In this document: positions 42,725-49,286 of the stretch, piece by piece
How positions within the stretch are numbered: position 1 is the stretch's first letter
Layout of the letters: every line of letters begins with the position of its first letter
Source of the DNA: an uncultured Clostridia bacterium
Lineage (GTDB): Bacteria > Bacillota > Clostridia > Oscillospirales > Ruminococcaceae
Direction: 5' to 3'
Assembly (NCBI GenBank): GCA_947588805.1
Contig: CANPYR010000005.1
Span: 1 to 64,000 of the forward strand
DNA length: 64,000 nt
The notes under the pieces: generated by a model
Told to the model about the DNA's origin: nothing
The model's database searches: none
The model's input: the letters and a program-made list of their open reading frames with translations, nothing else
Program-made: the position numbers and the translations under genes

Positions 42725-44539
42725 ATGATAAAACGAATTCTTGCAACCGCTCTGGCGCTTTCTCTTGCTCTTACAATGCTCTTCGGCTGCGCGGAGGGCG
42801 GCAGGGAAGAACCCGAGAATCCTCCCGCGCTCGAAACGGCGGAACAGTCTCCCAAAACTGCGGAAAATTCCGAAGCAGCGACAGAGCCGGTCACGGAGAT
42901 TCCGGAGGAGACTTCGGAAACCCAAACTGAGCCCGCGCCCGAGACCGAACCCGTTACGGAAACCGAACCCGCCGCTGAGATGGAAAGCTCCGAGACTGCC
43001 GCGCCCGAGACGGAAGCTTTTTCCGAGACCGTTGCGACCTCGGTCACGGCCGAGACCTTGCAGTCCGAAACCTTCGCCGTTTCGGTAAAAGATATGAGCG
43101 GGAAGATGTATGCGGTAAACGACGTGAACGTAAGGCTTTTGCCTGACGCTTCGAGCGAGAGGATAGGCCATCTTGACCGCGGAGACGAGGTCGAGATTAC
43201 GGGACAGGCCGAAAACGGCTGGTACAGAATAAAATTCAGGGACGGTGAATATTTCGTGAGTAACAGTTATCTTTCTTCGGAAAAACCTGCCGAGACTACG
43301 GCGGCTGAGACTACGGTCATGACTACCTCCGCTGCGACTGCGTCGTCGTCCGCGGCGGCTTCAAAATCCGAAGAAAAAGAAGAAAAAACCGAAAAAACTA
43401 AGTGGATAGCGGCTTGGGGCACGGCGATGCTCACGGCGGCAGCGGAACAGACTCCTACGAACCCGGGGCTTTCGGGGAATACCGTAAGACAGCAGGTCAG
43501 GGTATCCGCAGGCGGCGAAAAGCTCAGGCTCGTTATCTCAAACGAGTACGGAAGATCGGAGCTTAAGATCGAAAATATCAGGATAGCGAAGATCCCGAAT
43601 CCCAAAAAACCCGCGATAACTCTCGATACCGAGAAGGTGCTGACGGTAGACGGAAAGTCGTCCTTCAGCGTTCCAGCGGGTAAAAGAGTCACCACTGACG
43701 TTATTGATTTTGAGTTTGAAGCGCTTTCGGATCTTGCGATAACAATGAAGCTCGGGAGCGTTCCGGATATGATAACCTGCCACACGGCTTCGCGCTGCTC
43801 GGCTTGGGTGATAAAGGGCGATCACGTCTCCGACAACGACTACGGCTCGTTCCAGGAAATGACCGCTTGGTACTTTATCGCGGAGGTGGATACGCTCGCC
43901 GAGGAGGACGCGGGAGTTTTGGTATGTCTCGGCGACTCGCTCACCGACGGCGCGAGCGTTACGACAAACGGCTTCTCGACATATCCCCAGGAGCTTGCAA
44001 GGCAGTTCTTAGCGGATCCCGAGCTTGAAAATATCTCGGTAATAAATATGGGTATCGGCGCTACCGCGCTCTATATCTACGGCGGCGATATCGCAGGCTC
44101 AAGAAGAGCGAACAGAGACGTTTTGAAAGTCCCGGGGATAAAATACTGCGTGCTTCTGATGGGAGTAAACGATATCGGAGCCGCTCAGAACGACATATCC
44201 TCCGACATAATCAAGGAATACAAGTCGATAATAAAACGCTGTCACGAAAGAGATATAAAGGTCTTCGGCTGCACCATAACGCCGTTCAAGGGAAATTCCT
44301 ACTATTCGGATCTTCATGAGAAAATACGTCTTGCGGTAAACGAATTCGTACTCTCGGACGGCTCGGGATTCGACGGCGTTATCGATCTTTCAAGCGCGGT
44401 GGCTTCAAAGGACGATCCCGCGAAGATGGATAAAAAATACGTTTCGGTCTGGAACGACTATCTCCACTTCAACGATAACGGCTATAAGTATGTCGGAAAG
44501 ACGGTATACGGAAAGCTCAAGGAATATTTAGCGGATTGA
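42725..44539 (+). CDS. SGNH/GDSL hydrolase lipoprotein with SH3b-like domain
   Basis: LTMLFGCAEGG; NVRLLPDASSERIGHLDRGDEVEITGQAENGWYRIKFRDGEYFVSNSYL; VCLGDSLTDGASVTT; VSVWNDYLHFNDNGYKYVGK. Confidence 0.85.
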   Translation: MIKRILATALALSLALTMLFGCAEGGREEPENPPALETAEQSPKTAENSEAATEPVTEIPEETSETQTEPAPETEPVTETEPAAEMESSETAAPETEAFSETVATSVTAETLQSETFAVSVKDMSGKMYAVNDVNVRLLPDASSERIGHLDRGDEVEITGQAENGWYRIKFRDGEYFVSNSYLSSEKPAETTAAETTVMTTSAATASSSAAASKSEEKEEKTEKTKWIAAWGTAMLTAAAEQTPTNPGLSGNTVRQQVRVSAGGEKLRLVISNEYGRSELKIENIRIAKIPNPKKPAITLDTEKVLTVDGKSSFSVPAGKRVTTDVIDFEFEALSDLAITMKLGSVPDMITCHTASRCSAWVIKGDHVSDNDYGSFQEMTAWYFIAEVDTLAEEDAGVLVCLGDSLTDGASVTTNGFSTYPQELARQFLADPELENISVINMGIGATALYIYGGDIAGSRRANRDVLKVPGIKYCVLLMGVNDIGAAQNDISSDIIKEYKSIIKRCHERDIKVFGCTITPFKGNSYYSDLHEKIRLAVNEFVLSDGSGFDGVIDLSSAVASKDDPAKMDKKYVSVWNDYLHFNDNGYKYVGKTVYGKLKEYLAD

Positions 44540-44590: not shown

Positions 44591-45820
44591 ATGTTTAAAA
44601 AGCTTATCGCGCTGTTCTTAGCGCTTGCGACTGCGTTCTCGCTCACTGCCTGCGGCTCCGATTTCGTGGAGAAGCCTGACGAGGACGGCTGGGTAGCGAC
44701 ATGGGCTTCGGCCCAGCTGGTCGCGGGAACTAACGAGCTTCCGACCAAGCCCGCTCTCAAGGAAAACACCTGCCGCCAGCAGATAAGAGTAAATATCGGC
44801 GGCGAAAAAATAAGGCTCACCCTCTCTAACGAATACGGCGAGCTTCCCGCGATCTTCGAGTCGGTGCATATAGCGCATCTTCTGAACGCGGGCGAAAACG
44901 CGATAGATACCGCTACGGATACCGTCGTCACATTCGGCGGCTCCGAAGAGGTGAAGATCGAAGCCGGCCAGACCGCCACGTCGGACGAGATAGATTTCAG
45001 CTTTGAAGCTCTTGACGATCTTGCGGTAACGATCAAGTTCGGAAAATATGCCGGCTCAGCCGCGACGAGCCACACCGGCGCGAGGTGCCACACCTGGATC
45101 ATCGAGGGAGATCATGTGACCGATGAAAGCTTCACAGCGACCGAGACCATGACGAGCTGGTACTTCATCTCGGAGCTCGATACCTGGGCGAAGGCCGGAA
45201 CAAAGACGGTAGTGCTCTTCGGAGACTCCATCACCGACGGCTACGGGACCACCCCGAACCAGTTCGAGCGCTGGAGCGACGAGATGACGCGGCTCTTCCA
45301 GGCTAATCCGGAGTACAGCAATATCACCGTCGCGAACGAAGGGATAGGCGGCAACTCGGTATTCGGCGGGCTGGGGACCGCCGCGAAGGACCGCTTTGAC
45401 AGAGACGTTTTAGGGATCGCGGGAGTAAGATACGTGATACTTCTTATCGGTATCAACGATATCGGATACGCAAACGAGGATATATCCGAGAGCATGAAGG
45501 AGCAGTACAGCATAATGATCCAGAAGTGCCACGAAAACGGGATAAGAGTCTACGCCGGAACGATAACGCCTGTAGGGTCTAACGGTTACTACAGCGAGCT
45601 CCACGACAAGATAAGAAACGAGCTCAACGACTGGTTCAGGACAGAAAAATCCTTCGACGGAGTCATCGATTTCGACGAGCTCTTAAGAGACCCGAATAAG
45701 CCGGATACGCTGCTCCCGGAGTATTCAAACGACAATCTCCACCCGAGCATAGAGGGTTATAAGAAGATGGGAGAGTACGCGTATCAGAGACTCTTGGAGA
45801 TCTGGGAAGGGGAGAAGTGA
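44591..45820 (+). CDS. SGNH/GDSL hydrolase lipoprotein (tandem paralogue)
   Basis: SLTACGSD; VVLFGDSITDGYGTTPNQFERWSDEMTRLFQ; NDNLHPSIEGYKKMGEYAYQRL. Confidence 0.85.
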   Translation: MFKKLIALFLALATAFSLTACGSDFVEKPDEDGWVATWASAQLVAGTNELPTKPALKENTCRQQIRVNIGGEKIRLTLSNEYGELPAIFESVHIAHLLNAGENAIDTATDTVVTFGGSEEVKIEAGQTATSDEIDFSFEALDDLAVTIKFGKYAGSAATSHTGARCHTWIIEGDHVTDESFTATETMTSWYFISELDTWAKAGTKTVVLFGDSITDGYGTTPNQFERWSDEMTRLFQANPEYSNITVANEGIGGNSVFGGLGTAAKDRFDRDVLGIAGVRYVILLIGINDIGYANEDISESMKEQYSIMIQKCHENGIRVYAGTITPVGSNGYYSELHDKIRNELNDWFRTEKSFDGVIDFDELLRDPNKPDTLLPEYSNDNLHPSIEGYKKMGEYAYQRLLEIWEGEK

Positions 45821-46048: not shown

Positions 46049-47278
46049 TTAATCCGTATAAGCTACCGCGAGGACCTGCAGGTCGCATCTTTCGTTTCCT
46101 GCCTCGGCGTGGAATTCAAGTCTGTATTTTCCTGCGTTAAAGCTGTGATGTAAAACGCCTACGTACGGACAGTTCCAGCCGCCCTGCTCATACTCGTTGA
46201 AGGTCTTCGTCCCGACACGCTCGTCGTTGAAGTATATGTCGCATACAAGCTTTCCGAAGCTGTTCGTACCGGAATCGGGATAGATCACGTACGCGGATTT
46301 CCCCTCAAATTCAAATACAAGCGGGTCGTTAGATTCGTCAAACATCTTCGTCCAGCCGTCGGAATAGTGGAAGCCCGTGCTCGACTTTCTCCAGGATCCG
46401 ATATCGGCGGGCTCGGCGTAGGAGCGCTCCAACATATGCGCGTTATAGAAGTATTGCGGATACATCCAGTCGTCGGGAACCGTGACGTCGGCTTCGGGAG
46501 CTTCGGCTCTGTCTACCTCGTTGTAGAAGTAGGAGATGAAGTCCGCAACAACCGCGTTACCCTCCGCGTGGGGGTGAGTATAGTCGGAGGAGAATTCGCT
46601 CCACTGCATGGCTCCCTCGTCGAAGAGATATGTGATACCGTCCGCGTAGCTTATCATAGGCACGTCGTAGTGCGCGCCGATCTCCTTCTTCCATGCCTGA
46701 GAAGTCCAGCCGGCTTCCATCCTCGCAAAGAGAAGTATGACCGCAGGCTTTGTCTCGTAATCAAGAGCGTCGCGGATCATGGCTTCAAACGCGGCTCTTG
46801 TATCGTCGTCGTCGCCGTCGTTTACCGCGAATTCGATGAAGATAATATCCGGCTGATGATCCAAAACATCCTTCTCAAAGCGAAGAGCGCCAAGGTTAGA
46901 AGGCGTGCCGGAGATCCCGGAATTAAAGTAGTGGACGTTATCGCCGTTCCCCTTGCCGTAGGTTTCTTTAAAGCCGAGGTAGGAGCGGTTCGCGTAGCAG
47001 GTCTCAAGACCGTCTCCCTCGGTGATGGAGCCGCCGATGTACACGATATTTACATCCTCGCCGTTTCTCGCCTTTTCTATGGCTTTTTTAAGGCGGTAGG
47101 TATTCCCGAGGCTTGTCAAGGATTTGATTTTCGCGTTGTTCATGTACTCGTCGCGCGAAGACGGCTTGTCGATCCATTCAAGCGCCGCGTCGGGACTGCT
47201 TCCCCCGCCGCAGGCGGTCAGCATTCCCATCGAGAGAGTCGCGGTTAAAAGATAAACGATAAATTTTTTGACGTTCAT
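46049..47278 (-). CDS. SGNH hydrolase lipoprotein (divergent family)
   Basis: LTACGGG; EDVNIVYIGGSITEGDGLETCYANRSYLGFKETYG; DIIFIEFAVNDGDDDDT; SDYTHPHAEGNAVVADFI. Confidence 0.8.
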   Translation of the reverse strand: MNVKKFIVYLLTATLSMGMLTACGGGSSPDAALEWIDKPSSRDEYMNNAKIKSLTSLGNTYRLKKAIEKARNGEDVNIVYIGGSITEGDGLETCYANRSYLGFKETYGKGNGDNVHYFNSGISGTPSNLGALRFEKDVLDHQPDIIFIEFAVNDGDDDDTRAAFEAMIRDALDYETKPAVILLFARMEAGWTSQAWKKEIGAHYDVPMISYADGITYLFDEGAMQWSEFSSDYTHPHAEGNAVVADFISYFYNEVDRAEAPEADVTVPDDWMYPQYFYNAHMLERSYAEPADIGSWRKSSTGFHYSDGWTKMFDESNDPLVFEFEGKSAYVIYPDSGTNSFGKLVCDIYFNDERVGTKTFNEYEQGGWNCPYVGVLHHSFNAGKYRLEFHAEAGNERCDLQVLAVAYTD

Positions 47279-47509: not shown

Positions 47510-48098
47510 TCACCCCTCGTAAATTTCGAGCTTCAGAACTTTGTCGGCCTGCTCTTCGCCGCTTAACGTCACCGTAACTTGGGCGCTCTCCCACACTACC
47601 GACCAGTTGCGGTCGGTCATATTTTTTCCGTCGTTATGAAGCGTGAATTTTTTCTTGCAGACCGTCTTTCCCCCTCTTTTCAAAACCACCCGCCCGTCCT
47701 GAGGGCCGAAAGGCCATCCGGGAGAACCGAGCGTCTGCAAAAGGACTTCGTATTCTCCGTTTTCCGACGTCGCGACCGTTTCGGGGATCCTGTCCGCAAG
47801 AAACACAATGTTCCATAATATAAAATTCAAAACTAAGGCGCCACCGCACAATTATTTTGGTGCAGATACGCAGTCAGATTTTTTGTCAGATGAAACAAAA
47901 ACCGGAGCTAATACTTTGTGTATTCGCGAGGATTTTTGTGAAATATGACGAAAAATATGCAAGTAGATGCGCCAAAAAGGCGTTAGCCGCTAATTGCGCG
48001 GTGGTGCCCTAAAAATATCGCGAAAACGCGCGCGGCGACGCTTACCGCAGCTGCCGCGGTCAGCGCCGTCTTCTTTAAAAATTTCCGTTATCTGACAT
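47510..48098 (-). pseudogene. Small N-terminally membrane-anchored protein, split by a MITE-like insertion and a frameshift
   Basis: Excising 47837-48008 plus one CTAA copy joins KKTALTAAAAVSVAARVFAIFL to VLNFILWNIVFLADRIPETV in frame; one extra T in the 5-T run near 48080 restores an ATG start (MSDNGNFLKK...). Confidence 0.7.
47837..48008. mobile_element. MITE-like element, 172 bp, 18-bp TIRs, CTAA target duplication
   Basis: Left GGCGCCACCGCACAATTA, right (rc) GGCACCACCGCGCAATTA, 16/18 identical; flanked by CTAA at 47833-47836 and 48009-48012; no ORF of useful size. Confidence 0.85.
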
Positions 48099-48155
48099 CT
48101 TTTTCTCAAAACTGCAAATCTTTTCGCAGCAACTGTCCCGGCCTGTATCTTATAC

Positions 48156-49286
48156 TCAGCTCTCGGAATAATTTCCTAAAAACTTGAAGCTCTCGCAGGT
48201 CTGCTCAAGCGCTTCAAGCATAGCCGCGACTCTCGTATCCCGCACGCTTCCCTGCATTTCAAAGAAGAACATGAACTCAAAATCATGCCCTACGATGGGA
48301 TAGCTTTCTAACTTTATCAGGTTAATTTCAAGCGCGGTAAGTCTTGCCAAGACCTCGTAAAGCGCGCCGGGACGGTGCTTGAGCGCTAAAATAAGGCTTA
48401 TCCTGTCCGCGCCGGGATATATCTCCCGCTCTTTTGATATGCAGATAAATCTTGTATAGTTGTTGTCGCTGTTCTGGATGTTTTTGGCAATAGGAACAAG
48501 CCCGTAAAGCTCGCAGGCGGGATGTGAAGCTATGGCCGCGATATCCCCGAACTCAGAGCGCGAAGCGATCTCCGCCGCCATGGCGGTATTCGCGCAGGGG
48601 ACTACCGATATCTTCCCCCCGAGACTTTTAAGAAATTCGGAGCACTGTCCGAGAGCCTGCTCGTGAGAACGGATCTCTTTTATTTTTTCAAGAGTCGCGC
48701 CGGGTTTTGCCAAAAGCTCGTGACGGATGCAAAGACGTGTGCTTCTTACAATGCTGACGTTTTTGCGGTTCAGAAGATCGTACACCGCCCTCACGGAGCC
48801 GTTGGAGCTGTTTTCGATAGGGATAAGTCCGAAGCGGCAAAGTCCGTTTTCCACAGCGTCGAAGACCGCCTCGAAGCTTTTGAAGAACATAAGATTCCCG
48901 CGCGGGAAAAGGCTGTCCGCAGCCATCTGAGAATTTGCACCCTCGACTCCCTGGACGGCGATTATGCCGTTTTGTGGGAAATCTCCGGGATTTTTTGAAA
49001 GGGTTTCGGATAGGATGGATCTTATCTTAGTCCCGGCGGGATTTTTGCATTCGCGGTAAGCCCTGCCGAGCTCGAAAAGCGAGTTGTAGAATCTATGTAT
49101 ATACGGCTCCATATCTCCGCTCTTTTCGGTCGCCCAGCGAAGCATTTCCCTCTCGCGGGTTTTAATTTCGGCGGGACTGAGCTCCTCCTCGGAAGCCTGA
49201 GCGGAGAGCTCCATTCTTTCCAAAAGCTTCGGAAAAAGCTCGCGGTCAAGCCTGTCTATTTTTTTTCGTATTTCGTCTATCGGCAT
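48156..49286 (-). CDS. pheA: Bifunctional chorismate mutase/prephenate dehydratase
   Basis: MPIDEIRKKIDRLDRELFPKLLERMELSAQ; IAVQGVEGANSQMAADSLFP; IPIENSSNGSVRAVYDLL; ACT segment LALKHRPGALYEVLARLTALEINLIKLESYPI. Confidence 0.9.
   Translation of the reverse strand: MPIDEIRKKIDRLDRELFPKLLERMELSAQASEEELSPAEIKTREREMLRWATEKSGDMEPYIHRFYNSLFELGRAYRECKNPAGTKIRSILSETLSKNPGDFPQNGIIAVQGVEGANSQMAADSLFPRGNLMFFKSFEAVFDAVENGLCRFGLIPIENSSNGSVRAVYDLLNRKNVSIVRSTRLCIRHELLAKPGATLEKIKEIRSHEQALGQCSEFLKSLGGKISVVPCANTAMAAEIASRSEFGDIAAIASHPACELYGLVPIAKNIQNSDNNYTRFICISKEREIYPGADRISLILALKHRPGALYEVLARLTALEINLIKLESYPIVGHDFEFMFFFEMQGSVRDTRVAAMLEALEQTCESFKFLGNYSES

Follow-up and report, generated by a model that had tools for sequence, protein, structure and literature searches.

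The element and the gene that it interrupts

What separates the two parts of a small reading frame beside a prephenate dehydratase gene is the question raised by this locus in a 64,000-nucleotide stretch of an uncultured Clostridia bacterium (the window). On the - strand, the upstream part of the frame (48009..48087) and its downstream part (47510..47832) lie on either side of 172 bp at 47837..48008, next to a pheA-type prephenate dehydratase gene (48156..49286, - strand; Pfam PDT, 2.3e-55). Direct re-reading showed that the 172 bp start with the left terminal inverted repeat (TIR) GGCGCCACCGCACAATTA (47837..47854, + strand) and finish with the right TIR GGCACCACCGCGCAATTA (47991..48008, read on the - strand), which agree at 16 of 18 positions, exactly as the earlier note had claimed, and are paired likewise in other copies. 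The target-site duplication CTAA stands on the left (47833..47836) and on the right (48009..48012) of the element, and 4-bp duplications are found at other copies, too. The element has no coding capacity apart from short mechanical ORFs, and no sigma-70-like promoter was found inside it. The imperfect inward similarity of the ends, also described before, is real and larger than noted: folded as RNA, the entire 172 bp form one imperfect hairpin or palindrome, with -77.1 kcal/mol for the + strand, the more stable one (shuffled mean -42.5, z -8.7), and -62.9 kcal/mol for the - strand.

When the element and one CTAA are deleted, the two reading frames join (AIFL-VLNFILWN). With the joined peptide as query, two congeners proved to have an uninterrupted homolog, G004 (59% identity, residues 1-130) and G017 (51%), and two more, distant, homologs came from within the family. 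The intact gene adjoins the same prephenate dehydratase gene in both congeners (L271, L272) as in the window, and when the joined host flanks, with one CTAA kept between them, were aligned at the DNA level to both orthologs, no gap appeared at the junction. The G004 and G017 loci are empty sites, and the in-frame junction that had been put forward as evidence of an insertion agrees with these uninterrupted orthologs.

The insertion point falls in the hydrophobic N-terminal segment of a gene whose product, a protein with no Pfam match, looks small and membrane-anchored. The start of the host gene shows a one-base gap relative to the G004 ortholog, and no usual in-frame start codon is present upstream; the gene is for these two reasons regarded as decayed. 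This decay looks either independent of the insertion or later than it. A neighbour in the window, 46049-47278 (-), has a Pfam match to GDSL-type lipase/esterase, and the frames at 42725-44539 (+) and 44591-45820 (+) appear similar to it by eye (SGNH-like motifs).

Copies and target-site duplications

The source genome was searched over 2,008,613 bases in 53 contigs (86% complete) and contained about 15 copies of the element, each with its own flanks. Ten full-length copies were 98-100% identical and one further copy was at 92%; four copies carried an extra block of ~85 bp, and three diverged relatives were also present. An exact 4-bp duplication was seen at 11 of the 13 source-genome copies with readable flanks (TTAA six times, CTAA three times, ATAA and TTAT). 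Since the further copies have flanks of their own and most carry such exact duplications, chance is ruled out as the origin of the element. Exact 4-bp duplications likewise border 28 of 41 elements in three other genomes (G396, G878 and G880), where the elements without one mostly show a slight mismatch or reach a contig end. YTAR accounts for 25 of the 39 exact duplications, the others being AT-rich tetramers (TATA, TAAA, TTTA, CAAG, ATAA etc.).

TIRs, duplication, a short non-coding sequence, multiple copies and empty-site alleles are thus all found, as the assignment to a miniature element (MITE) had implied. As for the two findings that would have spoken against it, no other copies anywhere or the same 172 bp within an intact longer gene, the opposite was seen. 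It is confirmed that the 172 bp are a non-autonomous DNA element, a MITE, inserted in a gene.

A hairpin, a strand asymmetry and an intergenic position could also befit a REP-type element moved as a single-stranded hairpin by a tyrosine (RAYT) transposase, and REP/BIME sequences with RAYT share with the present element that they are repeated, intergenic hairpins. Target duplications and long TIRs, however, mark DDE transposition and not Y1/RAYT elements. The present element has both the long TIRs and the exact 4-bp duplications, so that membership in the REP/RAYT group, which lacks target duplication, was rejected and this route of movement is considered extremely improbable.

A hairpin core in the class Clostridia

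The 172-bp query matched 11 of the 60 genomes searched, the source genome included. In two genomes from other families of the order, the match was limited to inner positions 41-117, which led to the recognition of a core. A covariance model (R1), built from 66 diverse core sequences, matches the window at 47868..47967 (cmsearch, 93.3 bits on the + strand and 30.3 bits on the - strand); the apical part of this hairpin core, AAAAACCGGAGCTAATAC-TTTGT-GTATTCGCGAGGATTTTT with conserved unpaired As in alignments A1 and A2, lies at 47897..47937 (+). R1 matches were obtained in 82 of 388 sampled Clostridia genomes and in 52 of 221 genera, so that the repeat is present in about one fifth of the sampled genomes, common human-gut genera included. 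In addition, a one-side pattern of the apical hairpin was scanned over one genome per species for 85,462 species (GTDB species set). At least 117 stretches matched, and among the matches listed all titles were Clostridia or Bacillota, with Gemmiger formicilis, Faecalibacterium prausnitzii, Butyricicoccus, Dysosmobacter and Subdoligranulum among them.

Rfam 15 gave no match up to E 1 over window positions 47600-48200, nor did the elements at five related loci match any of its families, and a search of the open-access literature returned no description of this MITE or core family. As far as searched, a class-wide family with a co-varying core and changing ends was previously unlisted.

Element copies are also present on human-fecal phage contigs. 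Viral contigs (L232 and L233 from IMG/VR, and L234) hold copies of the core element whose apical loops differ in sequence, and a match to GP20-b RNA lies near the core copy of L232. The MITE was further seen on four Subdoligranulum variabile records of one assembly (OY725839, OY725847, OY725857 and OY725879, labelled plasmid 5, 13, 23 and 45). Because that assembly holds dozens of such records, the plasmid labels are doubtful, and the records may be mislabelled chromosomal contigs.

Taking all lines of evidence together, we regard it as likely that the element belongs to a class-wide, end-variable MITE superfamily, the conserved, RNA-like hairpin core of which would be kept for a role other than movement.

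Structure and covariation of the core

In the first alignment (66 sequences), double compensatory changes were found at 16 of 26 pairs; at one core pair, for example, 25 sequences have G-C, 20 have A-U and 18 have C-G, and one breaks the pairing. Covariation scored 0.372, compared with 0.131 after shuffling (0/500) and 0.075-0.101 in slid controls. In this first set, the search pattern prescribed the loop and the right arm, whose invariance there is therefore uninformative. The model itself, with no fixed loop pattern, was used to collect a second set of 48 sequences, a few loci of which also occur in the first. Double changes occurred at 23 of 26 pairs in this second set, the alignment of which leans toward the model's own structure, and the loop was variable. 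One unpaired A was nonetheless kept in 44 of the 48 sequences, another in 42 of 48, and the A of the right arm (column 76) in 48 of 48.

The two strands are not equivalent. One strand was the more stable when folded in 63 of 66 cores, and G-T cells outnumbered A-C cells by 130 to 17 over the pairs, or by 82 to 17 if the count is confined to pairs that are mainly Watson-Crick.

Palindromes can be corrected by template switching between their arms, and compensatory changes can in this way arise without selection, which is a point against the explanation favoured here. The core might then be functionless, an old palindrome that has spread horizontally and whose pairing is upheld by template-switch repair between the arms; the copies on phage contigs and plasmid-labelled records make such transfer plausible. 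Arm correction, however, should remove mismatches, whereas the asymmetric internal loop with its unpaired As is kept across genera, and the excess of G-T over A-C falls on one consistent strand. While correction between palindrome arms may yield covariation without selection, it would yield neither the kept unpaired As nor the strand bias, which is an argument and not a proof. We consider a functionless core rather unlikely and prefer the reading that the core would act as a folded single strand, most likely RNA.

Ends, modules and end-only elements

The core recurs between differing end types. Type A ends (GGCNNCACCGCRYAATTM), whose hosts include the window's genus and Gemmiger formicilis ATCC 27749, are accompanied by 4-bp duplications and type B ends (GAGCCTGTTCAGNATCTC) by TAA on each side in most copies, and further end types start with GTAACCGCTGATTAAATC, GGGMACCTCTGAAAACTC or GGAAGCNCTGATTAAKTC. 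To judge from their sequences, the end types are loosely alike, and divergence of one end lineage is as possible as an exchange of ends.

The interior is variable as well. A second module of ~85 bp (GAATAAACGCGGGGTTTTATCC...) stands beside the core or in its place, within the same ends (L012, 1627-1713; L013, L014, L015, L020, L021 and L032). In four copies of the source genome it is located beside the core and forms a second hairpin within the terminal stem, and in L032 it replaces the core. The MITE is modular, and its 257-bp form has two hairpins when folded.

Three elements of only 36 bp in G880 (L299 from 101, L292 and L300) consist of the two ends alone and have TTAA, CTAA and TTAG duplications, and core-less elements of 67-78 bp also carry duplications. 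The 36-bp elements reflect either ends that are able to move alone or in-place deletion of longer copies; that they could be deletions of longer palindromes in place counts against the favoured explanation. Given that the duplications around these end-only elements are intact, the ends alone probably suffice for movement. As the ends also vary, movement probably does not require the core, which would be kept for another reason.

These elements bear on the idea that the core is itself part of transposase recognition, as a further binding site or as an excision hairpin that transposition requires. In the high-copy families that were read, most full-length members contain the core, which thus travels with the ends. 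Such a role appears quite unlikely, however, in view of the duplications at both the 36-bp end-only and the 67-78-bp core-less elements and of the combination of one core with different ends and duplication lengths.

Search for the partner transposase

The earlier note had suggested a search for further copies, empty sites and an autonomous IS with the same TIRs; copies and empty sites were recovered, and the autonomous IS was not found. A search for TIR pairs in 31 genomes of the genus did not reveal a transposase with these ends, and a tally of the TIRs in 396 genomes of the order gave no autonomous partner among the matches listed per genome. Likewise, no transposase with matching ends was detected on inspection of five TIR-rich genomes, G396, Butyricicoccus, Gemmiger, F. 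prausnitzii and the metagenome-assembled genome (MAG) G880, and no autonomous element emerged when long ORFs were screened generically for flanking inverted repeats and a duplication. This result speaks against the explanation favoured here, but the absence of an autonomous copy is weak evidence because the genomes are mostly draft MAGs, which break at repeats and lose IS copies.

Candidates of the IS5 type were considered individually. PF01609 occurs in the source genome in two elements only, the ends of which do not match. PF13340 was present in 3 of 22 host genomes (L308-L310), and in L309 and L310, from hosts with type A ends, no matching ends flank the transposase.

As a refinement of the favoured explanation, and as the earlier note had suggested, the partner transposase of the GGCNNCACCGCRCAATTA ends could belong to the IS5 family (IS5, IS427 or IS1031 type). 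The range of target duplications in IS5 subgroups includes NTAN/YTAR 4-bp sequences and TAA, and the duplications at type A (NTAN/YTAR, 4 bp) and type B (TAA) elements agree with it, although the fit to YTAR is partial (25 of the 39 exact duplications). Four-bp target duplications are, however, also produced by IS families other than IS5, PF13340 is restricted to those 3 of the 22 host genomes, and no matching ends were seen around the transposase in L309 and L310 or on the PF01609 elements. We hold the assignment to IS5 as tentative, at somewhat below an even chance.

A model for the spread and maintenance of the core

We propose that a DDE-type transposase, acting in trans, recognised the 18-bp ends; the insertion itself duplicated CTAA and broke the small membrane-protein gene. 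The core lineage would have moved with transposases that recognise different ends; a common core with different ends is observed, and the partner transposases would have been exchanged or have diverged. The core has probably been kept since a single strand, most likely RNA of the window + strand, folds, and this folded strand would be recognised or processed by a host factor, as for Correia/CREE or BOX elements. A more specific version, in which a class-wide structured RNA with fixed unpaired As is a MITE passenger that outlives end changes, selfish or useful to the host, through repeated switches of transposase partners, is conceivable and falls slightly short of being probable.

Type II MITEs are shorter than 500 bp, have TIRs and short direct repeats, are non-coding, AT-rich, multi-copy and mainly intergenic, and by definition share only their ends with an IS; their descriptions usually concern one species or genus, and their transcript would fold as a stable stem-loop (PMC10969869). 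The present elements are alike in size, TIRs, direct repeats, lack of coding, AT-richness, copy number, intergenic site and the stem-loop that a transcript would form, whereas their core is conserved throughout a class, with co-varying pairs, between ends that differ. The Correia elements of Neisseria (CREE/NEMIS) are likewise palindromic MITEs near genes for which hairpin processing or regulation has been proposed. In contrast to CREE, which has an IHF site and promoters (PMC10969869), the element described here contains no sigma-70-like promoter that could be found, and the host class is unrelated. BOX/RUP of Streptococcus pneumoniae are modular small repeats, as are the core and the ~85-bp module, the likeness lying in modularity. 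RNase III cleavage, promoters and small RNAs derived from MITEs have been reviewed (PMC10969869). Should the core prove to be a functional RNA, gut bacteria would have in it a large RNA family that is so far unannotated. The MITE is also a natural test case for why non-autonomous elements retain an interior seemingly unneeded for mobility.

Genomic context and orientation

The elements are mostly intergenic when mechanical ORFs are counted. Where both neighbouring genes run in the same direction, the stable strand was antisense to them in 52 cases and sense in 22 in the first set (p 0.0006), and in 19 and 7 cases, respectively, in the second (p 0.03), although the two sets share about five loci (Gemmiger, G880) and copies within one genome are related, so that they are not fully independent. 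The simplest reading of this bias is that a strong hairpin is avoided in mRNA, and a function is not thereby demonstrated. With respect to a functional RNA, which we prefer, avoidance of hairpins in mRNA fits the antisense bias at least as well.

The MITE breaks genes and probably also fragments metagenome assemblies, those of Clostridia MAGs included: in G396, G880, G545, G667 and G769, many contigs end inside the MITE.
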